52,298 bases of DNA from Discostella pseudostelligera. Taxonomy: Eukaryota; Bacillariophyta; Thalassiosirophyceae; Thalassiosirales; Thalassiosiraceae. The first letter of the stretch is position 1. Every line of letters begins with the position of its first letter. Where the stretch lies: contig JALLBK010000036.1 in assembly GCA_036940085.1 (NCBI GenBank), positions 1 to 52,298 of the forward strand, given 5' to 3'. Shown piece after piece: positions 1,036 to 52,298 of the stretch. The notes beneath the pieces are model-generated. The model worked only from the letters and a program-made list of their open reading frames with translations. It did no database searches and was not told the DNA's origin. The position numbers and the translations under genes were made by a program.

Positions 1036-1886
1036 GATTCTTCAATGTTCAGATCCGACGGTAGTGCGTAGTAATTGTTGGAACACTGACGATGTGACGA
1101 TTGACGACGACGACGATGCTTGGATAGGCGTAGAGGGATAGGTATTCAACGACGCGACCCTTCAACTACCGCTCTTCCTATGGACGACGATGAACCGATG
1201 CCGATGCCGAAGGGTCGATTGGTGATGAGTTGAACTGCTTTTGGTTTTGGGTTTGCCTTTGGGTTTGGCTCTTCGGATGGATTTGATTGTTCGAACGGTT
1301 GTTTTCGTTTTTGTTTTGTGGTGTTCTTGTGATTTGCTTGCTTTGGTGCATTCTTCTCTTCTTGTGCTTTGTTGCCCCTTGCGCAGCTTGTGGTTGTGGG
1401 TGAAGAAGAGCAAAGAAGTGCGTTGAGGATGGACCGTTGAGAGCCCGCCAGCCCAACCAAATCTTAACTCCTCTGTGGATTCGTGTAGGAGGAGTACTTC
1501 TCGTAGACCTCGTAGGCGAGTACCAGTTTTCTCGCATTTGAATTTCTTAGAATCAAGAATGGGCCTTTCTTCAACTTCCCGCCAAAAATGAGATTACACG
1601 TGGCAGAGATTTGGCGGGAAAGAAAGGACTCGACTCCACAAACTTACACGTGGAGATCGACTTCTTGAACTTCCACGCGGCAGAGGTTGAGATACGCGGC
1701 CGACGCAACTCGAGGAGGCTCGATCGAGGCTGACGATGAAGATGATGAAATGCGGCCATGAATCGGGAGATTGGATGAAATATTGTACTGTTGTTGCTAA
1801 TCGGACATCTAGTATATCAAAAAAACACCTCTTCAACGTTACACTTGCATCGATGATCATCTCTACGTTCCATTCACTGAACAACT
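1036..1886. promoter_or_regulatory. Upstream region of the Tudor-like gene with paired inverted E2F-type sites
   Basis: No convincing gene lies here. TTCCCGCCAAAAA at 1576-1588 and TTTGGCGGGAA at 1610-1620 are inverted copies of the classical E2F core. CACGTGG (G-box) occurs at 1597-1603 and again at 1647-1653. The sites are about 550-600 bp upstream of the minus-strand start at 1035 and about 270 bp beyond the stop of the next gene. Which gene they serve is unknown. Confidence 0.45.
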
Positions 1887-3113
1887 TTACTCCAGCGTTA
1901 CAACGCCGACATAATTTGCGTGGAACGAACCAAGATACAGTTTCCCATTATGCTCAGTAACTCCAGTAACCGTAGATACATCTCTCCCATCAGGGTCCTG
2001 AAATATCCGTATGATAAGAGCTGGACTGTTCTCATCGCCTGGGTGTATTTCTGCGGCGGCTCCATACTGTAGAACCTTGGGTGCCAATGACTTTGGAAGC
2101 ATCATCAAGAATGAGCGAATGGGCCGACCAATCCATGTAGGCATTGCAAATATTGCACCCACCAATGGGTCCATTGGTGTAGCGATGGCAACATAGCATA
2201 ATCCACTCTGGAACGAACAATCCACTCCATCTAGAAATCCTGGAAAGTTATCCAGTATCCTCTCCGGTTTCGCTCCCTCCTCATTGAGCGGATACTTCAT
2301 CACACTTCCTTCAAAAGTAGATGTATAAAGAACATAGGTTTCATCTGCATTCACTGCCACACCATTGGTAAATGCCCCCCCGGTCGCGAGAATGTCCACC
2401 TTCCCCGTCTCGGGAATGTACCGCAATAACCGTCCAGTTCGTTTTCCACGAACACCCTCCACCTTGGACGCATACATAATATCCCATAATCCCGATTTTA
2501 CATCTCGATCGGATTTGACATCACTTGCATCCGAGAAATAGACATGTCCCGTCCTTGGTCCAATGTCGACATCATCGGCATAATTTATGGAAGACCATGA
2601 TCCATCTTCCAGTTGGACACGAGAGGCAACTAGTTCCACATATGGCTTTGTTGTTGTTGTTGTTGTTGTTGAATCGGCAAAGTATAGACAGCCATTTTTG
2701 TCAAATTTCCCTCCCAGAGGTGCACCCACTCCCAAGTCAGCAATTTCCGTCGACTTGGCTGTCATGATGGAAGAAGATTCTTCACCATTCGCTCCTTTCA
2801 TTGGTTCAAAGTCCGTAAGTGACACCAACTTTGCGTTCTCATTCATAATGTACATTTTGCCATGATTGTCAAAGATGATTGTTTCGGAATGCACCAATAA
2901 TGGCACCTGACCTTCATGGACTTTGCGTTCATAGATCTTGGTTAATTTCCCACTCGACAAACGTAGACTAGTATTGCTGGGATCAACCTTTGACATTGCT
3001 GGACGATGTTGTGGTGGGATTTCGACGGCATATCCATGTGGGAAGAGATGTGGTTCGAAGGTGCGGGCCAGTGTGGCGATGGCGATGACGATGATGGATA
3101 ACAAGATTTTCAT
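1887..3113 (-). CDS. Strictosidine synthase-like / APMAP-type beta-propeller protein, secreted or membrane-anchored
   Basis: Single-exon gene of 408 residues. Residues 1-17 form a hydrophobic signal peptide or anchor (MKILLSIIVIAIATLA). The core matches the strictosidine-synthase-like family: YFADS and GHVYFSDASD, then TGRLLRYIPETG, then the diagnostic TNGVAVNADETYVL turn. The C-terminal GVTEHNGKLYLGSFHANYVGVV completes the six-bladed propeller. A poly-Thr run (residues about 150-156, a GTT repeat near 2651-2671) sits in a loop. In animals and plants most such proteins are hydrolase-like (arylesterase or lactonase) or of unknown activity. Alkaloid synthesis should not be assumed. It is divergent with the Ala/Glu-rich gene at 3649 and shares its 535-bp promoter. 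The fold assignment is secure, the substrate unknown. Confidence 0.85.
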   Translation of the reverse strand: MKILLSIIVIAIATLARTFEPHLFPHGYAVEIPPQHRPAMSKVDPSNTSLRLSSGKLTKIYERKVHEGQVPLLVHSETIIFDNHGKMYIMNENAKLVSLTDFEPMKGANGEESSSIMTAKSTEIADLGVGAPLGGKFDKNGCLYFADSTTTTTTTKPYVELVASRVQLEDGSWSSINYADDVDIGPRTGHVYFSDASDVKSDRDVKSGLWDIMYASKVEGVRGKRTGRLLRYIPETGKVDILATGGAFTNGVAVNADETYVLYTSTFEGSVMKYPLNEEGAKPERILDNFPGFLDGVDCSFQSGLCYVAIATPMDPLVGAIFAMPTWIGRPIRSFLMMLPKSLAPKVLQYGAAAEIHPGDENSPALIIRIFQDPDGRDVSTVTGVTEHNGKLYLGSFHANYVGVVTLE

Positions 3114-3648
3114 GGTAGCCTACTTGAAATACACAATCGAGTTGATAGGATGATAAGACCGATGTCTAACAGTAGATATAGTAGCGTTTGACGAGGAAGA
3201 TATTATCTCTTTATCGATGCCTTAGGGCGTATCGTAGTAGTATCGCACTACCATACCCATATGTTGCCGCCGATGTCCATGGTCTGAAGGTCCGTGGTCC
3301 GTGATGTCCGTGATGTTATGCGTGATGGTGATTGGTGAGATCCTGTGAGATCTTTTGCGAACTCCGGGCGACTGCCACGAACAAGGTTCAATGTCCAAAG
3401 ATCTTGCTGACGTGTGCAAGAAAGATTTCACGAGAAAGAATGGATCCATTCTGTCTCGCTGTGACGTCAACCCAGAAATCAGCGAATCCGATTTCCCTCC
3501 GACTCTGATCTCGAAATCCTTCCTTACCATGATATTTTTGTTCTCCATCCCCGCCGAAGCCACCCCCCTATCATCGACCTCGTCAGGTGCTTTGTTGAAC
3601 CATCATTATTTCATTTCGAGTACTATTTGCACACCGTTTTTCATCGCC
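3114..3648. promoter_or_regulatory. Divergent promoter with a perfect TGACGTCA (CRE/bZIP) palindrome
   Basis: The 535 bp lie between start codons of divergent genes (3113 minus, 3649 plus). TGACGTCA is at 3462-3469, 180 bp before the plus-strand start. TGACGT-type elements are known CO2/cAMP-responsive sites in diatom promoters. Use here is inference. A weak open frame reads into the plus gene from 3355, but the signal peptide at 3649 argues against starting there. Confidence 0.4.
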
Positions 3649-4218
3649 ATGCCTCGATACACATCCCTCCTCCTCCTCGTAGCTATTGCATGCGCCACCA
3701 CAACTTTGACGTTTGCGGAGGAAGCCGCTGCCGTAGCGGCAGAGACAGCAACTGAGCCAGCGGCGGCGGAGGGTGAAGCGGCTGTGGCGGAAGGAGACAA
3801 GAAGGACGAAGCGGCGGCTGCAGAGGGTGAAGCGGCAGCAGTTGATGGTGAAGCGAAAGACGAAGCGGCGGCTGCAGAGGGCGAAGCAGTAGAAGCAGTT
3901 GAGGGCGATGCGAAAGACGAAGCCGCGGCTGCAGAGGGCGATGCGGCAGTAGCAGAGGGCGCAGCAAAAGATGAAGCAAAGGGAGAAGCCGGTGCACCGG
4001 AGGGTGATGCGAAGAAGGACGAGGAGAAGGACAAAGAAGGTGCCGCTAAGGATGAAGCAGCACCTGCCGCCGAGGCAGGCGCAGCAAAGGATGCTAATGC
4101 TACTAGTGCTACTGCTGAGGGAGCTACCACAAGCGGCGCATCACCGTATTCCGTGACTACCACTGCTGCTGCGTTTGCCATGGTGGCTACGGGTGCGATG
4201 GGTGTCATGGTCTTTTAA
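3649..4218 (+). CDS. Secreted Ala/Glu-rich repeat protein with C-terminal hydrophobic tail (possible GPI anchor)
   Basis: 189 residues. The start at 3649 was chosen because the first 23 residues form a classic signal peptide (MPRYTSLLLLVAIACATTTL then TFA), in a good CGCCATG context. The mature part is almost entirely Ala, Glu, Asp, Lys and Gly, built on KDEAAAAEGEA-like units. At DNA level the unit starting GACGAAGCGGCGGCTGCAGA recurs at 3805, 3859 and 3916 (periods 54 and 57 bp), a coding minisatellite that probably varies in copy number. The last about 25 residues are hydrophobic (TTTAAAFAMVATGAMGVMVF), preceded by small residues SGAS, as in a GPI-attachment signal. A transmembrane tail is the alternative. 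The sequence suggests an acidic cell-surface or frustule-associated protein. There is no recognised enzymatic domain. Confidence 0.7.
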   Translation: MPRYTSLLLLVAIACATTTLTFAEEAAAVAAETATEPAAAEGEAAVAEGDKKDEAAAAEGEAAAVDGEAKDEAAAAEGEAVEAVEGDAKDEAAAAEGDAAVAEGAAKDEAKGEAGAPEGDAKKDEEKDKEGAAKDEAAPAAEAGAAKDANATSATAEGATTSGASPYSVTTTAAAFAMVATGAMGVMVF

Positions 4219-5719
4219 TTGTGCTTTGAGACTGTCATGTGATTATGAAAGAATTGCGAGACGCTCAGGTATCAGTTATGACACGAGATGTGACGAGGCA
4301 CCTTGAAATTAAACAATCTTTAGTACTGCGCTATAAAAATCGTAGTCTCGCCAGTATTAACAATTACGTTAGGCAATATCGTGTAGACAAACAGCCGGCA
4401 TTATTGTATACTGTATCTTATTCCAAATGGTAAAAGACAATTCAGTCTCATCAGTCTCATCAACCATCACTCGTAATGAATTTAGTAAAATGGCTGCATC
4501 CACGGCACGTACAATCGGTTATCGTCGCATGAATACCTTGACCAAATCACGTTTCATGTACTTCGCATAGACAAAGCCAACTAATCTACCAATTGTCGAT
4601 GCAATGTAGCTAGCGACTGTGCAACGTGTGTATACTGACATCTCCCGGCAATATTGATGTGAAGACAAATCCCGATGAGTACAGATGTCGAAACGAGTAG
4701 TGCGATGTAGGAAAAGACACCCAAGATTGGGTGACTCATTATCCAACGCACGAAATTGATAATGTTCGAGGAAATGCAGCCCGTACGTAGGATTAATATA
4801 TCGAGAAGTACTGGTGATGTTGAGAGGACGACAAGGAGTGAGCAGTGTGCATAGCTCCTTTTTCCATGATCTTCGTACTAAAAGTGAAACAATTCTTTGA
4901 TAATGTGCTCCTCTGATCGATGCTGTTGATGGTGGTGATTATGATGTGACTGCACATTTGTGGATGTCTTGTAATTATTGGCAAGCAGAATCGTTCTCCT
5001 CATCATCGGGCTTTTGTAGGGGGTGCTAATATTAATATTGCCGTTGACGTTGATGTTGTCGTTGTTACTGATGCTGAGGTTGTTGCCATCGTCGTCGTCG
5101 ACTAGACTGTTGCTGCTGCACTCATCTTCTTTACCGCCCTCAACTTTAGCATTTAGTTTTTAGAGGCACGTTGTTGCTTCTTCGTCGGATCCGCCACTCG
5201 CTTATTCGACGTCCATTTCTTCATGTTCATGAAGCTGCCCTTGTGTTTTCAATTTTTCCTTCTCATCGCCCAATGTTCTCTTACTCGACACTGATAGAGA
5301 TAATACTTCTATCTGACAACAATAATATTATGATTGTCATAACCAATAGCAGCGTTCAGTCTATGTTCATGGTCATCATGTTCATGTTGTGTTGATTCAC
5401 AACAACAACATCACTAAGGGCTACTACTTATCTCCGTTCGGATTTATTTCTCGTGTTTGGGCCATTCTCTTGAAGGATTTTCTTGCCAACTTATTGACTC
5501 TCCTGAGGAACTCAGTAAATATCCAAATTCAAATTTGTCTATTTAGAACAACATTACTTACGGATGTGTGTCTCTCTCCTTCCATTCACATCCATTATTT
5601 TATCTCCAAGGCTCCATCACTCCATCTCGCACAATGACCGCGACCGCCGCTGCCCGCCGACATACCTAGCTACCGCTATCGTAGCATCGAAGTCAATTAC
5701 TGATTATGCGGCAAGCATC
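4219..5719. other. Gene-free stretch, no supported feature
   Basis: About 1.5 kb between the Ala/Glu-rich gene and the GT92 gene. Only short frames without coding character occur, such as one on the minus strand at 4746-4519. A GTT/GTC-rich simple-sequence stretch lies near 5040-5110. Part of 5170-5719 is presumably the 5' leader and promoter of the GT92 gene. No tRNA, repeat family or E2F-type site was seen. Confidence 0.4.
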
Positions 5720-7527
5720 ATGGATGTCCGGAAGCAAAAGGACAACCACTGCCCACCAACCACTACGATATGGTGCGAAGCATTCCAATGTACCATAGCA
5801 GAGGAGGAGATCGTCATGGCTGGCGTGCCGACAGGAAAAATAAAGTACTTACCAACGGTGCAACGATCAATTCGTCCAACATATAATAGGAAGGACAAAT
5901 CAAGGTTGATGCTGGGCACGTTCATGTTCGCACTTGTCGTCTATCAGCAATATTCAAGTTGGTGGATGATGCTCCTCGGGTCGTCGATGATGATGCAGAC
6001 GATCGATCTAGGAAGAACGGCACCGCCAACAAATCAAAACGACCGTAACCTACCACACCATTCTTTCTCGGCATTAGTCCCAATGTCAGCTGTTTCCGAA
6101 GCCGAACGGCAAGTCATTCCAGGCACATTTAACTATGGATATTCCGCCAGCACTGCAAACGACACATCCTCCTCCGCACTAGTAATCACTGGTGCTTCGA
6201 TTTCAGGCGACTATCACTCCTCCTCCTCCTCCAACAGTACACTTTGGATTCAGTTATTTGTGTCGGCGAGAAAGTTCTTCGAAACGACGGTAGCAATGGA
6301 TGCTTGCTACTCTCGTGATGAAAACATACAAAAAGAGGATGTGCAACCATGGGATGAAGTGAAGAATGAAACATTCTTATGTCGAATCGGCACACGTAAG
6401 GCATATTTTGAGTTGATGCCGTCCAATGGTGTGGATGGAAATACCAATGAATTGATTCAAGTTTGGAGATGCCCCCTGTATGATGGTGGTTCAAATCACT
6501 CGAATATTCTATCAGATTATGATTTCCAAGCGTTTCATCGGCATATGCATGACGATGGAATGGCATTACCCATTGAGGTTCTACACAAGCGTGCAGGTAA
6601 AGAAGATGAAGACACTATTCCAGTGCTGGTGAAAATGTTCCTCCCGATATACGAGCCAACCATTGGGATTCATCGAATACGTTCCGATTTGCCAGCGGGT
6701 AAACCTTTCCTGAGTCAACGTCACAACATCACGCTATGTGTCGTATCTCATGTCAATGCCATTTCGCATTGGAATGAGTACATCCGATATCACACTGATA
6801 TCATTGGTATTGATCATATTCACATGGGATTGTACACAACCTTTGGTGAAGGACAGAGAGACAAGACAAATCAGTTGTACAAAGTAATCAATCGAAATTT
6901 CAAGCACGATATTGACGAAGGAGCACTGTTGGTATCAGCTCTTTGGGATGATGATTTTGACATAAATTGTCCCGATCAAGAGTTTCCTAAAGTGAATTTC
7001 TACCAACAGTGTCTTTATCGAGCCAAGAGCACATCGGAATTCGTTGCTACTTGGGATCTGGACGAATACTTCCTTTTCCATAATTTGGACGATTCGAAGA
7101 AACAACTGAATTTGCCTGCATTTCTAAGAGGAATCGAACATCCACAATGCCATGATTGGTGTTTTGTTAGTGTTTTGTTACAATGAAAAGTTCTTTGGCA
7201 GGATTCGACGATGGCAATACTGGCACTGGATTGGTGGCGTTTGAGTATCTGAAGCGAATCAAGGAAACAGACACTACTTGGCAAAAAAGCATCAGCCGAA
7301 CGAAGAATGTATTTCTCAATAGTTATCACACGCCTGGCGCATGCCTTCCACCAGGAAGTAGAGATTTGGCAAACACTGTTGCCATTGAACCTTCCGATGA
7401 TGGTGAATGTGGCTTTTACATTGACGAAGCTATCATGGTTCACGCTCGAGGTATGCAATATGGAGAACATGAACTTGAAGACGAGGATACTGTTCAGAAT
7501 GAACTGCTTGATGCGCTCTTAAGATAA
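5720..7527 (+). CDS. Family 92-type glycosyltransferase, frame interrupted by an 11-bp tandem duplication
   Basis: Type II membrane layout: a short basic N-terminus, a hydrophobic anchor near residues 60-85 (MLGTFMFALVVYQQYSSWWM), a Ser/Asn-rich stem, then a GT92 (DUF23) catalytic domain. Diagnostic parts are NITLCVVSHVNAISHWNEYI, YQQCLYRAK and ATWDLDEYF, where DLD is the metal-binding DxD. It probably transfers sugars to N-glycans or surface glycans in the Golgi. The frame runs from 5720 (or 5816, another good start) to about 7170 and resumes in another frame to 7527. Between them TGTTTTGTTAG (7160-7170) is followed directly by TGTTTTGTTAC (7171-7181). Removing one copy gives a continuous domain. 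I found no GT-AG intron that repairs the frame. It may be a pseudogene, an allele or an assembly error. Its stop is only 3 bp from that of the opposite-strand gene. Confidence 0.75.
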
Positions 7528-15245: not shown

Positions 15246-18200
15246 ATGATGATGCTCCAATTTGCCACGAAATCGAGAGTCTCTGTATCCTTCCTCCGCT
15301 GGAACAAACCAGCTTCGCATGGCCGCGCAACCTTTGGCAATGTAGCAAATTCGAATGTGAAGGCGAATGACGTCGCTCGTAGTAATCGCACATCCACTCT
15401 ACCTTTATCATTATGGCTTAACTACGATACTAATGTGGGGTTCACTGCCACATGTATCAAGCCTGGGTACACCTCGCTGGGAAATCCATTCACCATGGCA
15501 TTTTTGGCCAAGCGGGCAAAGAGCAGCTGCGCAGCTAGTATCAATCATGATGTGGATGGAGAAGATATCAACGGTGCTGCCATCATTGGAAGAACTCACG
15601 CCGGTGTGCTAGGCGGAAGGAGTTATCAGGAAGCATGGATGGTCAATCTTGGTAGGGGCGATGATGCGTGGTTGCCTGGACCGCGCAGTGCCGATTGGTT
15701 TACTGGATTACACCCTACGGTTTGTCCTGGTAAGTGCACATTATTATCTTTGTTTGCAAGTGAGATGTGATGGTCGCGATGGAAACAGCGTACCAATACT
15801 TTACTGTTCATCATGTTGTTGTGGATAATATGAACAGGTGTCGATGACAATGGGATTCTCCGTTCGCTTCCCCTTCCCAACCTTTCGAACGTGACACGTC
15901 AGGGCGCCAAAGATTATTTTGACAACTCGTGGACTTTGTTCGAGATGCTGTTTGCAGGGTTGAATGGAGAGGAAGCATTTTACAGGTGAGTGAAGTGTTT
16001 GGTCTACCGGTCTGACATCGAGTTTGTAGTTACTATTACAATAATCCATTTCATTTCTTTCACAGGCCGCCCGTCCATGGACTCCGTCATCCTCAAATCT
16101 TTTACTACGGTCACACGCCCTGCCTTTACATTAATAAGCTACGTGTCACGGGCGTACTATCCGAACCTGTCAACGCATACTTCGAATCAATATTTGAGGT
16201 TGGAGTAGACGAAATGCTTTGGGACGATATGCACAAAAATGATATGATCTGGCCGACTGTTAGTGAAGTATTTGAATATCGTAAACAAGTCTACGACACA
16301 GTTGTCGATGTAATAATGAACCATCCCAGCTTGGAATGTGCGGACGGAAAAGGCTTGACTGTGAATCAAGAGCATCCAATGTGGGCATTGTTCATGGGTT
16401 TTGAGCACGAACGAATTCACTTGGAGACGAGCTCTGTACTGTTTCGGGAAATGGGTATCGATTTAGTCCAACGTCCAGCCAGTTGGCCTGGGCTGCATCC
16501 GACTGCCTACAACAACACTTCCACAAGCTCCCACCCGATTGAGGAAGTAGATTATCCATCCAACAAAATGATTGATGTGCCTGGAAGAACGGTGTCGCTG
16601 GGTAAACCGATCGATTTTCCATCGTATGGTTGGGACAATGAATATGGCACTCGTACTGTGTCTGTGCCTAACTTTCAAGCATCAAAACATATGATTACCA
16701 ATGGTGAGTTCTGGCAGTTTGTTGCTGAGGGGGGATATCGTAGGAAGGAGTTTTGGTGCGATGATGGCTGGTTGTGGCGATCGCATCGAAACTTGAAATG
16801 CCCCTTCTTTTGGCAATCGATCGGGCCTCAGGGATCTCATGAATATAAATTGAGAATGATCTTTGAGGAGATTCCAATGAAATGGGATTGGCCAGTGGAT
16901 GTAACATACTATGAAAGCAAAGCGTTTTGCAGGTGGAAGAGTGAAAGGGATAGATTGCCGATGGCAAAGTCATATCGTCTTCTTACGGAAGCTGAGCATC
17001 AAGTCATTCGCTATGAACAACACAATTTAGAGGCTGCTCGAACTTCGGTATCAGCAGACAAAGTTATGGTAACTTCTGGGGCCGACTTTCCGAACGGGCC
17101 GACGGGAGCGAACTTGAATATGGCATATTCATCATACTCGTCAGTGGATTCCTTCCCGCCCTCTCACACGGGCCATCACGACACTATCGGCAATGCTTGG
17201 GAGTGGACGGAGGATCACTTTAACCCGCTCAAGAACTTTGAGGTGCACCACGTGTATGATGACTTTTCAACTCCATGCTTTGACGGAAAGCATTGCATGA
17301 TTGTTGGTGGATCATTTATGTCCACAGGCGATGAGGCGTCGGTCTTTGCACGCTTCCACTTTCGACCACACTTTTTGCAACATTCCGGCTTTCGATTGGT
17401 AACATCTGATGAGGATGCGCCAGCGACACATCTGTTCCCGGGCACTTTTTCTGGGCAGGCTGCTGCTAGAGATGCTGCTAAGGTCGGACTTGAGACTACT
17501 GTGCAATCAAAGAGCAACGTTTACGAGACAGATGATTTGCTGAGTATGTATTTGGGTCTCCATTTTCCATTGTCAGGTTCGACGGGCATCTTGGAACACA
17601 AGAACTCTCCAATTCACGGGCTGCGCTTTCCTCAACGAGTCGCCGAACTGCTTTGTTCTCTGAAACCTGTGCGGACAAACAACCGTGCCCTGGACGTTGG
17701 GTGTGCTGTTGGCGGTTCTTCATTCCAACTCGCAAAATCTTTTGACCATGTTGAGGCTTTCGACTTCAGGTAAGTAAATACAATATGAATGCTCCTCCTC
17801 ACATCATTCGCTTGTGATGATTAACTCTTGTATGCAAACTGTCAGTGAGAACTTCATTGCTGCCGCAAAGAAAATGCAAAATGGAGAAGAGTTAACATTT
17901 GACATTCCGATCGAAGGTGACTTACTTGAGAGAGTGTCTGTTGTTTATGAGTCTGGGGTCGATGCCACTGTGATGAACAAAGTCAACTTCTTCCGGGGTG
18001 ATGCTTGCGCCCTTTTTGAGTACGCAGACGACAAGCAGGGGTTTGGTACATTTGATGGTGTCATTTTAGCAAATCTTCTGTGCCGTCTTCCTGATCCAGT
18101 GGCTTGTCTGAATGCAATGCCGAAGATTGTAAATAAAGGTGGGATTGTTGTGATAGTGACTCCGTTCTCCTGGTTAGAAGGTACGTTGCAGCAATGGACA

Positions 18201-34436: not shown

Positions 34437-37400
34437 ATGATTGGTCGACATCAACGCCAGCCTGAAAGTGGTGGAAGCTGGAGGGTTCCTGGTCATGACG
34501 ATGAACCACCGCCGCAGCAGCGACGACAACACTCCAATACTTTCTCCGCGGATGCTCCGTCAATGAATAGTTATTATTCCCCACCACAACAACAACATCG
34601 GCATTATCTAAACAATAGCAATTCTATTACTGGCAATGGTGGTGGTGGTGACGACAACAGCAACAACTTCTTTGATCAACAGCAACGTAATGAGCATGAA
34701 TTTACTACCTCCCGTCGAACCAAAAATTCTTGGCCGCAATCCTCGAATAATGGCCACCAATCCAATTCTACCCTGGGAATACTGTTAACAATACTATTTC
34801 TCATATGGGGATCATTTTCTGGATCATCATCCTCCTCCTCCATTCTCGATTCGACATGGAATTTTGCAGCGTCGACCATACCAGGTTTCTCTCGTCTTGC
34901 GGGGGGGACGAAGCTGGGCCGACGATTATCTCGTGGTCTGGGCAGCAGTAGCAATGATGATAATGATGGGGAAGATTTCATTCGGCCTGATTTTGTCTAT
35001 GAACATCCCTACGTCTCCAGCTCGTATTACACCTCAACCAAAAGCATTAAAACCTTGTTGGCCAACGAAGAAATTCAAGTGAAGAAGAATTTACTATTAG
35101 CTGCCGAGGAGGAGAGGGAGGCTGCCATGCAGGCAACAGCAATAGGAGGAGCGGGGGGTAACAAGAGAGGAGAGATTAAAACGCGATTGGCAATTGTACG
35201 GCCCTTTTGTGAATTTGATGCCGAGGCCTTACCTTCGACATTTAGTTGTTGGAATGGATTGCCACCGTGCAAGGCTGCCAGGGAGGATATTGGTGATGAT
35301 TATGAGGATGAGAATGAAGAGGATATGTATGAACTCAATATCGATGGAGAACTCGTGGCCTACAAGAGAAACAGCAGCTTGGGAGGAGGTGGATATGATG
35401 ATGATGAGGAGGATCGGCATTTGTTCGATTTTGTTGGGAGCGATGCCATGAAGAATGCCGTGGCCGATGTCTTCTTATTCTACTCACAGACATTTTCAGA
35501 GAATGAGGTGGCCATCAAGGCGGTGGATACCATTATTGATCAATTCTTCGAACCGGGCGGGTGGTCTCAATGTTTTGCCAACATTTATGCCATTGAGGCT
35601 AATATCCCCCAGGAGTTGGATTTGTACATTCCAAGTGCGCAAGAGGAGTTGTACAATTGGGTAAATGGACCGAATCGACAGTATGAGGCGGCATTTCGTA
35701 TCATTCAGAGTGGGGAGTGGGGAGAGTATGATGGATTCTATCTGATGGAGGGTGATTCGGTACCGATTAAGGCCCATTGGTTGGATGTGGTGTTGAGTGA
35801 GATTGAGAAACATAGACCGTTCGCCGTCTTGGGAGCGTGAGTGACAAATTGACTGACTTGCATCATGGAGCAATTGCGCTTTTCGACGTCGCCTCTAACA
35901 GACGTGCTACTTTTATATCTCTCATTTCGGCTTGTGCAGTCAATATGATGGAGATAAATGGGATAATTTCTACGAGAAGATTCCGATTTCACTCCTACAC
36001 CATACGAACGGCAATGCCATCTACAATACATCGCATCCATTGCTTGAACGTCTCGTGGGTCAATTGGAAATTGAAGCACCGTGCCCGTACAACTCCATCC
36101 CCTACGATTATCGCATGTCTCAAATGTGGGTGGAAGGCACGTTGGGTATTGTCCCCACCCTCGCTCCAAAGATTATGCTGAATGAGGAGGGTGAAAATAT
36201 TACCTTGTCGAACAACCTAGAAATGTTCAGGAAGTGGGCGGACATTTGGGAGAAGGAGAACCCCTACAAATTCACTCCAGTAATCCATAACTACGCAGCA
36301 ACGAATCTAATACCACGCCACCTTGGTCCTGAATACATCATCCACGGAGCCAAATTGTACTCTCCATGGGACCCAACAAAAACGGAAATAACATTGGTGA
36401 TCTCCGAATGGTTCTATGATCGATCGTTGCATTTAATCAAGAACTTGGATGAGAAGGATCATCCATTTTCCCAGGTGGTAGTCATGGTTCCTCCCGTTGC
36501 TGGAGCGCGTGAAGATTATGATCAGTTGACCAGCATTCCGGTGCGGACACAACATCGAGGGTCTCCAGACTACATGGACCTTTGCGATGCAGAAGTGACA
36601 ACTGATTGGTTTATGATCACGAACTCTTACCACCAGGTCGCTCGCCATGTTGATTTAATGTTTACGCCCGGGAAATTCCAGCCCGTTATTCCTTTTACTC
36701 CGGCGACGTTGGCATTTTGCTTCAAGTTTCCGTATTGCAAGGAGACAATCAATCTGGCCCAGGTAAGTACGTTGCATTGATAGATGGACCATTTCAATTG
36801 TTGCATTGGTTTGATATGATCTCATCTTCTTTCTTACTTTGGATATTGCATTCTGACAGCGAATCAATCCAGGCCACGACAAAGTCATACTTGACATGGA
36901 CATGCTGTACCATACCGAATCTCGCAATGCCTATTGCAAAGAATGGAAGGAGGCTAACGGCGAGGAGGGAGAAGACCTCTACAAACACCAACAACGGCGG
37001 CTCATGTTTCGAAAGAAAATCATTGGCCCATCAGGTCCTACTGGAACTTCCTACTTTGCATGGATGGTGCGAGAGAAGAAGGATGACATGTACAAAATGA
37101 CAGATCGATCGCTTTACGGAGCAAGGCCTCCTTTTATCAAGGTCTTCTCTAAGGAGGAGAAACTTGATGGCATGTCAGCAGATGAGCGAGCCAAACGTGT
37201 CGGGATGACGTTGATGGATAACACGACGGATTGCAATTGTGGAGCGTACGAGACGGAAGTTGAATGCACTGAGTCAGGTATTGGATGTTTATGGCGGCCT
37301 CTATTTGAGAGTTGTCATCCGCCCGAGTTGATTGATGGCAGTGAACCGATTTGTCCATCTACGGAAGCCCCAACCATGGCCCCGACAATCTTCCTTGAAG

Positions 37401-39655
37401 ATGAAACTGAGAGCCCCTCTCCTGACGTCGTGCCGCCCCCGGAAGATGATGTAGGCCCCGTCCCTGAAAGCGATCCATGGTATATCAGCATGTTCAAATC
37501 TAGAGAACATGATGCGTACACGTCCGAAACCAATACCACGGAAGATTTTACTCTAATGGCGGATGATGATGACGCAATCCCTGGATCAGAAGCTGGTCCT
37601 ACACAATCTAGAAAACTCCAGGCGGACTCCTACGATCCTTTCTATCAAACAAACTTATTTGCGGATCCACGGCTGGACACTTCTGATGTACCGAAACGGA
37701 AGTTGCAAACCAAAGTACTCGACGATTTGTACGTCACGAATGCTCAAGCTCAAAGAGATGCGACAACCCTGCCTATGAAGGTGTGCAACTCATGGAATCC
37801 GACCATAGTACCTCGGAATCGAACAAAATCAAATATATGGGATGGACCATCATTGGATCCTGAATCGAGATCGTTTTCGGCAATGTCAACCTCTCGTCCG
37901 AGGAAACTCTACGGCTCACATTTACGGCTTCACCATCTAACGTCTCGGGAGCAATTTCCAGATTTGCTTAACATTTTGGACGACTCTTCTGCGATGAAAT
38001 ACTCTTGGCAGACTTTAACTGTCCCGATCAACATACCTAAATATACTGCATTTAGTGATGGTCGTAAGTCCAATGTTCCACTGGACCCACCTGAAATTGA
38101 GCACAAGACGTTCGTCAATTATGAAAATGATAACTACCAGCCTATCCGGATCACATTCGCAGCTGATCATTTGCTTGATTTTAGCATCTTTCACGAGTCA
38201 TCGAACAAAAATGAGAAACGATCGCAGTCGGTTACTATGGCTACGATTTCAAGGATTGAAACATTGACTGGGGATATTTTGCCAGCTGTGGCAGAAACTT
38301 GGGCTAGTGCGATCTCTGTCCTCCAGTCCGATGACAACATGTTTCCATACGGCCATAAATGTGGAGCAGCAGAGATTTCGTCGCATCATTTGTCACGAGG
38401 ATTTCCAGATACTGATATTGTCATACACGTGACTGTTGATGGGCCACAGTGTTACAACGATGCAAATGCACTGAGAATCGTTTCGTACTCCACTGTTTGC
38501 TCATTTGACCAACACATGCGTCCGATCTCTGCGAACATTGATTTGTGTCTTGAGAATGTAGATTTATCCTTCGGAGATGTTTCTGACAAGGAGAGTCTTC
38601 GCCTCACTGGTACATTGACTGTAGAGGTGGGCAAGATACTTGGCCTGAGTCCAGCTCTTTTTCGGTACTTCCGCAATCCTCTAACGAAGCAACCGTATGG
38701 ATCCACGGAGCGGACCGTTCGATGTGTTGATGGTGCTGAAGAGACCCTTTTTGTTCCAAATATACTGCAAAGTGCTTCGCTTGTTGAAGATATTGGAAGG
38801 TGGGAAGTGACGACTCCGACTGTGAGGCAGGTTGTTCGAAACCATTTTGATTGCCAGAGTTTGCTCGGTGCTAGGCTTAGCCAATCAGGTTCATCGTCAT
38901 GTTTTGGTGACTTTTTCGATCCACGATATCATTTCGACGACAATCTCGCTCCATCAGGGGGGTCAGCTGACATGGCATACTCATTAAGCCCGCTGACTTT
39001 GGCGCTACTCGAAGATTCTGGATGGTATCGCGTAAATTTTGAGAAGTCAACCGTTCCCTTGTTTGGACGGGGCGCCGGATGTGGTTTCGTCGAAGGCAAC
39101 TGTGTTGGGCCACCTCAAACCAAATTACCCGACTACAGCCAAGGATACTTTTGCAATGATCAAGATAGAAATATTTCGGGCCATCCATCAGGTTGTGATT
39201 ATACTCATAATCACAAGGCAGACTGTATGAGATTTGAAGAGTCCGAAGCGAGCAATTGTCCCTTGCAAATAGAAAACATCAAATCTTGCTCCGACCAAGC
39301 GAACACTCCGTCCTTCACTGGCGAAGTCTACTCCGTCAATAGTCGTTGCTTCGTAACAGACACTCCTTCTTCCATTTGCTTAGAATCATACTGCAACTCC
39401 ATCGACTCAAAAATAGATATCGTTGTGAATGAAAAGGTCTTCCAATGCGACTACGAAGGACAGGAAATCAATCTCGGTCAAGAATATACTGTAAAATGTC
39501 CGCGACTTGCTACGGTGTGCCCCCACCTCGTTTGCCCCGCAAATTGTTCAGGAAGAGGCGTATGCGATTATTGTCTTGAAGTACCGCAGTGTCTTTGTGA
39601 AGATCCTTTTGACAAGACAGCTGGATGCTACGGCGACATTTCTCAGGAAACATGA
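34437..39655 (+). CDS. Glycosyltransferase-like protein fused to a catalytically dead leishmanolysin (M8)-like domain
   Basis: Three exons: 34437-35836, 35940-36762, 36860-39655 (introns 103 and 97 nt, phases consistent), giving 1,672 residues. A Gln/Asn/Ser-rich cytosolic tail precedes a signal anchor (about 112-127, LGILLTILFLIWG), so it is a Golgi-type type II protein. A glycosyltransferase-like domain follows: YLMEGDSVPIKAHWLD (about 437-452), FAVLGAQYDGDKWDNFYE across splice 1, NGNAIYNTSHPLLERL and DYRMSQMW. A Cys-rich linker and a Thr/Pro/Asp-rich stretch lead to an M8-like domain (about 1050-1500) with YGHKCGAAE, MRPISANIDLC and SADMAYSLSPLTLALLEDSGWY. The peptidase zinc motif HExxH is replaced by VEVGK (1329-1333) and the downstream ligand His is missing. 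It ends in an EGF-like CPANCSGRGVCDYCLEVPQC. Both halves lie in exon 3. The role of the dead peptidase is unknown; binding is a guess. Confidence 0.75.
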
Positions 39656-44108: not shown

Positions 44109-47100
44109 TCAAAGCATCATGTCCGGCTGTAATTCATCCCTGCCGTTCAGATAAGCCTTGGAAAGGCGCGACGACGAAGCAGCCGAAGAGCCAATGCCAC
44201 CACTTCCATCATCGACTTCTACCATTAATGATGCACCATCCTTATCGCGCACAATCACAACAGTTGGACATCCTATCATGGAATTTTCTACTCGTCCCAT
44301 GTCTACTGTTGCCCGATCACCGTCTACTAGAAACCCTCGAACTATGGCATCGCTTACCGCATCCTCGAATATCCTCTGCGCCGCCCGCCTCATAGGCCGT
44401 GCACCAAACTGGGCAGCATTCATGGCTCCGTCACTCATAATGGACTCTATAATTGACTCGGTTGCGACAAGTCTAATCGATCGTTCCTTGTATGCGCGTT
44501 CAATGGATGCATCCACAATGGCAGTAGCAATGTCACGTAGATTGTCATCATCCAGTGGAGAGAAGACTATGATCTCATCGATTCTATTAAGTAGCTCTGG
44601 CTTCATCTCCTTCTGGAGCTCCTCCTGGACAACTTCTGATAGGGCCGAGTATTCTTCTGCGGCAATCATTGATTCTACCATTGCGCTATCATCGCCATTC
44701 AGACCCTCGTTGCCCATGACGAATTCCTCAAAAGTTGTGGAACCTTCTTCCCCGCCACCTCTTCGCTTCTTCTTCTTCCGAATGCCAATATTTTGCGTAC
44801 GCTGCAGTCTTTGCTGACTGACCAATTCCAGTATCTGTCGACTGCCCACATTGCTCGTCATTACCAAAATTACATTCTTAAAGCAAATTGATCTCCCCTT
44901 TCCATCCGTCAAGACACCATCTTCCATTACTTGGAGCAACACATTCAAAACATCGCGATGCGCCTTCTCAATCTCATCCAACAATACCACCGAGTGAGGC
45001 GCCCTGCGCACCGCCTCTGTTAGCTGCCCCCCTTCTTCATATCCTACATAGCCCGGTGGTGGGCCAGTGAGCCGTGAGGCAGTATGCTTCTCCATATACT
45101 CCGACATATCGATACGTATCATATCCTTCTCACTTCCGTAGTACTGCGCTGCCAACGACTTTGCCAGCCAAGTCTTTCCGACCCCAGTGCTGCCGCAAAA
45201 TAGGAAGGATGCCACGGGTCTACCAGCATCGCGTAGTCCGCTGCGTGCACGACGGACGGCGCGTGCAATGGATTTAATGGCACGTTGTTGTCCCTTCACC
45301 CGTTCGGCAAGAGAAGATTCAAGATCCAGCAATGTCGAGGACTCTGTCGATGTTAGCTTCCCAATGGGAATATTCGTCCACTTGGATATGATTTCGGAAA
45401 CGTCCTGCTCCGTAACCTCCGGTAGAGGACTCATGGGAATAGATGTGGAATGAAAGGCGTGTTCCATTTGTACCGCGGCCCCAGCTTCGTCCAGTAAGTC
45501 AATTGCCTATGAAACAAAAAGATCGACAATGAGTAAAACATTCATTGCAAAAGGGTAGAAAGCAGCCGAACGGTTGCGCACGCACCTTATCAGGAAGAAA
45601 TCGATCTGTAATGTATCGTTCACTCAACTTGGCGGCCGCAACCAAACTATCTCTCGTATATCTCACACCATGATGCGCACCATACTTCTCCGAAATGGCC
45701 TCCAAAATTGCCACAGTCTGATCCACTGTGGGTTCCTTCACCAACAGTGGCTGCAATCGACGTTCCAAGGCTGCATCCTTTTCAATGTATTTGCGATATT
45801 CGGATATGGTCGTGGCACCAATGACTTGCAGCTTACCCCGCGCTAATGCCGGTTTGAGCATGTTAGCAGCATCGATACCACCCTCGGCAGAACCGGCGCC
45901 TACTAGGGTGTGAATCTCTGCATGTGTAGTTTAGTGTATGTCACGGAGAAGAGGAGATAACAAAGAAGGAAATGATATGAAAGACGTCGATAGACTGTAC
46001 GAGATGCACCACAAAACATGAGCACTACTTACCATCAATAAATAAAATAGTCGGTGGCGCCCTCTCATCAGTAACCTCCTCCACAATCGCCTGCAATCTC
46101 TCCTCAAACTCACCCCGATACTTCGTCCCGGCCACCAAATTCGCCAATTCTAATGATACTACTCGATGATTCCGTAATTTGGCCGGACACAATTTGGCCA
46201 ATTGTTGAATCATATTCACCTCTTCTTGCTTGGTAAACAAATCTTCTCCATTGGTCCCACTATCAATACTTCGATCGAATAATTCATCAAGACGTTCCAA
46301 CATGTTAGGTGCTGCCAATATCTGTGCCACGCCCTCAGCAATGGCCGTCTTTCCTACGCCAGGTTCACCCATTAGACAAGGATTGTTTTTCCGTCGACGG
46401 ACTAATGTACGAAGAGCCGATTGGATTTCGAGATCACGACCATGGACAGGATCTAATTCCATCCGGGTGGCTAGGTCGGTTAAGTCGGTACCTACATCAT
46501 TCAAGGTGGGTGTGGAGGATTTTTTGTCAGACACACCGGTTACCAATTCACCACCACCACCACTACCACTTCCACTGGAAGGATATTTCATATCCATAAT
46601 CAATCGCCGACAAAATTCCGCTGCCGAAAATGTGGAACTATCCCAAGAAACACCCTCCATACGTAAAAACACTGCCAATGCGCCACGAGCATATCCTCGT
46701 TCTTCGACACTGGCGTCAATTTCATCGGGGACACGTCCCAAGCTGGCATCATATCCCAGTAACGAGAGTAAGACATGTTCGGAATTGACTGTGGGAGAAT
46801 CTAATGAGTCGGCAATGGACCCAGCACGTGAGAGGACACGTTTGAGTGGTGGAGCAAAGGGTAATTCCACATCTCGTGCCTTGCGATTCATATTGAGTAA
46901 TTGGGGTGATATGGCAAAGATACTATTTTTCTTTGGTTTGTTATTCTTGTCACCATCGTCCTCCCCATTATTCTTTGCATCATCCTCCTCCTCATTCTCA
47001 TCTTCACGAAACATATTCTCCACCGTCAATCGAGCCTTGCGCAATGTAATCCCATAAGAATTTAGGGTTTGGCGCGCCTTTTCGGGTCGATCGATAATGC

Positions 47101-51411: not shown

Positions 51412-52298
51412 TCACTGTTTAGCAATGTCTGCTTCGGTGACAGCGGGATTGGTGATGTATCGGTGTTTGAAGGTGACAGTGTTGGATACTCTTTCATCAT
51501 TTGTCTTTCTGACGTATATTCGGTGGCACCGATAATGTTCTGGCGACGTTCCCAAATACCACCCATCAAGTGACCTCTCTTCCCAGCTCTTCCTTTTGTT
51601 GGGACTGTTGTAGATTTGCACTTCACAACCCATCGGGCCTAGTGGCATTGCGTTGTAGTCGAAGGGTCCATTTACATAATGGTATGCAGAGACGTTGGGG
51701 TTTACGTTTGATTGGCGGAGTAGGTTGAGCGTGAGTATGGTTTGAGGCAAGAGTCGGTCCCACAGGTGGAGGGGGAAGTTATTGCTCAAGCCGGATAGGA
51801 CTGACACAAAGTGGCTTTTGAAGGTTTGAATTGCCCATTCAGCTAGATTGCTTCGGTGAGTGTCAGGTGGGACCAATTGCATTTTACAATTGCTTTTGAT
51901 TGCTTCCTTCAGCGCTTTGGGGGCTTCGTTGTCGAGGATGTGCAGTTTGCGTGACATTACTTTTGAGCTTGTCAATTGCTTCCACAGGGCGAGGTAAGTA
52001 TTCACCATGCTTTCGGATGTTCTGCTTTTCATTGGCTCCGCATTGATGTAATTTCCATCAACTTCACACATTACCATGATGTATTTGTTTCCCCTACTCG
52101 GTGTTACAGGGAAACCACCGGTTTGGTCAGTGTACACTGTGTTGTGTGCATTGAAAACCAATATGTAGATGTCGTTTTTCTTTTGGTTGGGTGCAGTTGG
52201 TGCGTCTTCGTCACTTGTCTCAGTTATCGCCTTCTTTTTGGTTGATCGTACATTCATTCTTTGCATTTTCATGTGACCTTTTAGTGTTTCATCAGATT
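51412..52298 (-). mobile_element. Ty1/copia-type retrotransposon polyprotein fragment: pre-integrase and integrase (partial at right edge)
   Basis: The frame enters from beyond 52298 and runs to a TGA at 51414-51412, about 295 residues within the window. The first residues (TLKGHMKMQRMNVRSTKK) are the basic stretch after the gag-pre-integrase zinc finger. The integrase core follows with recognisable D, D and E regions: FNAHNTVYTDQTGGF, RKLHILDNEAPKAL, and THRSNLAEWAIQTFKSHF. Then comes the copia-specific LWDRLLPQTILTLNLLRQS, and GCEVQIYNSPNKRKSWEERS to GWYLGTSPEHYRCHRIY. No reverse transcriptase follows: the frame stops and unrelated sequence begins. The element is therefore 3'-truncated or its ORF ends prematurely. 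No LTR was found inside the window. The catalytic triad residues themselves appear intact. Confidence 0.85.

Follow-up and report, generated by a model that had tools for sequence, protein, structure and literature searches.

A diatom glycosyltransferase-like protein with a leishmanolysin-fold domain devoid of zinc ligands

The window analysed here is a stretch of 52,298 nucleotides from the diatom Discostella pseudostelligera (contig JALLBK010000036.1, forward strand). On its + strand lies a gene of three exons (34437..39655; all features of the gene given below are on this strand) whose product of 1672 residues joins a glycosyltransferase (GT)-like half to a whole domain of the leishmanolysin family of peptidases (M8), from which the zinc site has been lost. 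A first-pass annotation of the window had described a sugar transferase tethered to a dead peptidase; our analysis extends this description, in that the pairing of the two parts is conserved among relatives and the whole group of related M8 domains is dead.

Evidence that the fold has outlived the active site comes firstly from the M8 domain itself (residues 1120–1660; 37994..39616). The domain scores 87.2 bits against PF01457, for which the cut-off is 21, with the best Pfam stretch at residues 1162–1633, and its predicted model shows the M8 (leishmanolysin) fold rather than a mismatch to it. Each of the window's 26 M8 cysteines is present in 95–100% of fused rows of our alignment, and 25 of the 26 also in at least 85% of rows that possess the zinc motif HExxH. 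At the place of that motif stands VEVGK (residues 1329–1333; 38621..38635), with lysine at the position of the second zinc histidine; in GSSSCFGDFFDPRYHFDD (residues 1418–1435; 38888..38941) the column of the third zinc histidine is occupied by phenylalanine, as against histidine in 38 of the 39 HExxH rows. Both parts of the earlier claim – a site lost and a fold retained – are thus borne out, and the loss reaches well beyond the window: 40 of the 42 fused rows have lost the zinc histidines altogether, all three being replaced, the exceptions being P0012, which retains one (depending on the alignment), and the basal P0029, which retains two (HEIGK together with SHW). Lysine or arginine occupies the second position in 39 of the 42 fused rows and in 95 of the 101 rows of the dead group defined below.

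The homologue set derives from three protein searches with at least 261 matches listed, a record being counted as fused when it had at least 100 aligned GT and at least 200 aligned M8 residues. The search for the same domain pair, which the first-pass annotation had proposed, found at least 44 fused homologues among the 261 matches listed, and HExxH occurs nowhere in the sequence of any of the 44. Sixteen of them reach at least 500 aligned GT and 400 aligned M8 residues, while the others are partial; the genera named in the fused records are members of the Thalassiosirales. Among the same matches at least 37 nearly complete GT proteins have no M8 match, including proteins of Chaetoceros debilis, Ditylum brightwellii, Attheya, Synedropsis, Stephanopyxis turris and Proboscia alata, although some of these M8-less records are probably truncated: for Thalassiosira sp. 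AJA248-18 the GT protein (P0018) and an incomplete M8 record (P0195) are found on separate contigs. A tree of the GT part, made by a quick method from 58 rows, places 18 of the 19 fused rows in a single group of 32 that also takes in 14 without fusion; the remaining fused row, P0029, branches closer to the base, next to P0061.

A tree of the M8 part was built from 142 rows, namely that of the window and those of 141 homologues in which 330 or more M8 positions were aligned; the fused P0026, P0045 and P0087 had too little M8 to be included. Its rows comprise 39 with HExxH, 42 fused without it, and 61 lacking both HExxH and a GT part in the record, many of the latter being exon or contig fragments in which a GT-less record does not establish an unfused state. 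When the columns of HExxH and the three that flank it on each side were omitted, and the third-histidine columns left in, 101 rows without the motif grouped together (SH-aLRT 94); P0051 and P0241, which also lack HExxH, fall outside. The neighbour of the dead group is P0050, which keeps HEMAH, has glutamine at the third histidine and also bears a PF01607 label. Read from these sequences, the pattern suggests that the second histidine was lost first and its basic replacement then kept, an order that is tentative given a quick tree with long branches.

A second line of evidence is the constraint upon the dead domain. Across nine orthologues the GT parts show identities of 0.86–0.88, the M8 part a mean of 0.64 (98% aligned) and the linker between them 0.60 (89% aligned), with 0.59 for the former catalytic half of M8. 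These figures, together with the conservation of the cysteines, show that the dead M8 domain has been retained whole and that its old catalytic half diverges at the pace of the linker. That so many relatives share the pairing suggests that the dead peptidase is kept for another job, probably binding.

The other half of the protein has its own conserved features. LMEGDS (residues 436–441; 35742..35759) is a candidate ExD motif whose E.D is kept in 37 of the 39 alignment rows with letters there; further landmarks of the first GT-A domain are HHTNGNAIYN (residue 487) and DYRMSQ (residue 523), both in exon 2. The predicted structure of a relative contains two domains with the GT-A fold. Domain 1, with its candidate ExD-type motif, is probably the working transferase; domain 2 has TNS where the sequence pattern would lead one to expect the acidic motif, and its role may be structural. 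No GT family was found in Pfam for 47 relatives or in NCBIfam for four, and a profile search of the GT half against PDB sequences gave no match at E ≤ 1. Since this half matches no Pfam family it may represent an undescribed GT family of diatoms. The PSI family (PF01437) matched 3 of 47 members, with an E value of 0.0032 at best, and a search of viral structures returned GT-type and unnamed matches from giant viruses and phages, with query-normalised TM scores of at most 0.21 in the rows listed.

The reading that we favour, tentatively and with slightly less than even confidence, is that the transferase works in the lumen and that the pseudo-metzincin domain serves it as an arm for binding. 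The gene product would be a single membrane protein of the secretory pathway, anchored by its N-terminal hydrophobic segment with its bulk in the lumen of the Golgi or endoplasmic reticulum. Two GT-A domains, as predicted for the relative, would come next, the first presumably doing the work, and the linker would then bear the leishmanolysin-fold domain, whose sequence shows that all three zinc ligands are gone and that the second has given way to an almost invariably basic residue. Binding is the likeliest role of this domain: its non-cutting cleft would recognise a protein or glycoprotein and hand it over to the transferase, or position the enzyme by its substrate, and the basic residue may hold a positive charge at the former place of the zinc. 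Since each half is also found without the other, the module would probably serve the same pathway even when unfused. A bolder version, which we think unlikely as a whole, is that a diatom family of Golgi transferases turned a metalloprotease into a recognition arm for substrates or partners: the near-fixed lysine or arginine would replace the zinc, keep the cleft positive, grip peptides or acidic glycans and so select the wall or secreted proteins for glycosylation, and later gene splits would have freed this arm to act in the pathway as a protein secreted by itself.

Separate forms are seen on both sides. M8 matches occur on eight contigs of the assembly, and the domain is dead at three loci: in the window (VEVGK), on C660 (NLIGR) and on C205 (TETSR). 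The C660 paralogue (L017, G000:C660:10500-20400; 1599–3825, − strand) has a signal-peptide-like stretch, MMRILPILICLSS, at the N-terminal end of its frame, and no GT match was found near it in the 9.9 kb examined, some 6 kb of which lies 5′. At the same locus two overlapping open reading frames (ORFs) duplicate one stretch with an ambiguous residue inside, which may be an assembly scar. The C205 locus (L018, G000:C205:14000-21595; ~6027–7499, + strand) lies near the end of its contig, and its motif is nearest to that of a separate solo group that includes P0200 of Cyclotella cryptica. Hydropathy, the only measure used here, indicates a signal-peptide-like stretch just within the annotated start of P0179, and hydrophobic starts in P0159, P0160, P0161 (Conticribra weissflogii) and P0164. 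As for the transferase, the GT parts of P0013, P0017 and P0019 are 84–85% identical to the window's and are followed by tails without M8. These tails, which terminate in ..EF, contain sequences like RKLE..T.DPWYE, and P0017 and P0019 have such sequences more than once. A protein search for a second GT locus in the D. pseudostelligera assembly found that of the window only. The pairing has thus probably been undone in both directions, and for this reason two parts of one pathway fit better than an obligatory tether. Of the sugar transferase tethered to a dead peptidase that was first proposed, the pairing in one chain stands; the existence of solo dead M8 domains and of M8-less GT proteins speaks against the tether as an obligation.

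The main rival to a binding arm, improbable in our estimation but the strongest of the alternatives, turns on the linker (residues 890–1119; 37304..37993), which has three R[RK]L tripeptides and, at residue 1050, an element C..W.P..VPR that 38 of the 42 fused rows possess but none of the 39 HExxH rows. The protein would be a proprotein, cleaved in the Golgi at R[RK]L so that the transferase stays bound to the membrane and the pseudo-M8 domain is set free; the latter would act in the cell wall or outside, like the solo forms, whose signal-peptide-like starts accord with this. Across 45 fused proteins including the window's, R[RK]L occurs 54 times in 11034 linker residues and 54 times in 46317 residues elsewhere, an approximately fourfold higher density in the linker, though the counts come from related rather than independent sequences and have no shuffle control. 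According to PMC5525289, RXL domains are typical of diatom biosilica proteins, and their removal by an unknown protease is reported for silaffins; R[RK]L tripeptides are common to silaffins, silicanin-1 and the window's protein. Yet in silicanin-1, as the same paper describes it, the RXL domain sits after the signal peptide, not between folded domains as R[RK]L does here. Moreover, the tripeptide is absent from the linker in 13 of the 45 fused proteins (all but one from the paralogues grouped around QLVGR), and the site nearest to M8, PR[RK]L, recurs in solo P0161 and may therefore be a component of the M8 part, not a separator.

More doubtful is the idea that the dead domain regulates the cell's other M8 peptidases, in the manner of a decoy or inhibitor, or merely gives the transferase structural support or a means to oligomerise. 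In favour of regulation, M8 loci with HExxH lie on four contigs of the assembly (C398, C168, C413 and C558). The fusion to a transferase would, however, be left unexplained. On a further contig, C742 (L003, ~1279), AEIGH accompanies an intact SHW region, its first residue possibly falling at an intron boundary.

It is very improbable that the M8 domain has kept a metal-dependent activity through a putative site rebuilt from His1403, His1432 and Asp1434. These residues are conserved in 95–100% of fused rows (His1432 in 95%) as against 26%, 0% and 3% of HExxH rows, but they were chosen from a scan of all alignment columns, and the histidine pair of the zinc helix is gone from 41 of 42 fused rows, just as HExxH is from all 44 fused homologues. 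The ligand columns gave the candidate no support.

The structure of the gene bears upon the weakest alternative. Exon 1 (34437..35836) encodes an N-terminal tail rich in Q, S and D, a single hydrophobic segment and the start of GT-A domain 1; exon 2 (35940..36762) the remainder of that domain and most of the GT-A-like domain 2; and exon 3 (36860..39655) the end of the GT half (which as a whole spans residues ~250–880), a cysteine-rich PSI-like patch from residue 865, the linker, the M8 domain and the stop. Both introns (35837..35939 and 36763..36859) are bounded by GT..AG, and their joins are gap-free against the seven homologues displayed. The hydrophobic segment (residues 112–130), which is short and on hydropathy has the highest peak of the whole protein (1.69 at residue 112), is a possible type II membrane anchor. 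P0004, a homologous ORF from an MMETSP transcriptome labelled 'type:complete', covers the GT and M8 parts together; it starts just before the GT part, so that the hydrophobic segment is absent from it. This transcriptome ORF gives no sign of two separate genes, and the placing of both parts in one gene is upheld. An artefact – two adjacent genes or a decayed pseudogene – can be rejected almost outright, for although the gene model is computational, the frame of exon 3 is uninterrupted across the GT/M8 junction, the architecture recurs in 44 homologues, which come from several different source collections, and the P0004 ORF runs through both parts.

Metzincins without activity and Golgi transferases of several domains are each familiar types of protein, and catalytically dead ADAM22 binds LGI1. 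ADAM22/LGI1 complexes appear in the structure list from the M8 fold comparison, and by analogy the likeness would lie in a catalytically dead peptidase proposed to bind a partner. The GT half has no sequence match, in the PDB profile search, to LARGE1 (which is in the PDB) or other dual GT-A Golgi enzymes, and an rmsd of ~20 across both domains indicates that the arrangement of domains differs from that of LARGE1. Nor does it match the GlcNAc-1-phosphotransferase GNPTAB, which is not known to have an M8 domain. From leishmanolysin/GP63 (1LML) the window's M8 domain differs in the loss of all three zinc histidines, in its fusion behind a glycosyltransferase-like protein and in the C..W.P..VPR element. 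Leishmanolysin is among the most enriched proteins of the predicted Nitzschia putrida secretome, according to PMC9054022. In titles and abstract openings of the open-licence literature we found no description of a GT/dead-M8 fusion or of a dead diatom M8 domain. The gene offers a conserved case of a peptidase retained as a pseudoenzyme within a probable glycosylation enzyme, and the existence of relatives in intermediate states, and of natural splits that left either half by itself, makes it possible to ask when catalysis was lost and why the domain was kept.

Elsewhere in the window, a frame at 16016–17770 (+) has a sulfatase-modifying-factor (FGE) domain (E 1.3e-31), and one at 5519–7183 (+) resembles Glyco_transf_92 only weakly, its score lying under the cut-off (E 9e-4). 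On the − strand are a ClpX-like frame at 44112–45506 (AAA_2, E 6.1e-62; ClpB_D2-small, E 9.4e-10) and, at 51415–52296, a retrotransposon-type fragment (SH3_retrovirus, E 2.4e-6).
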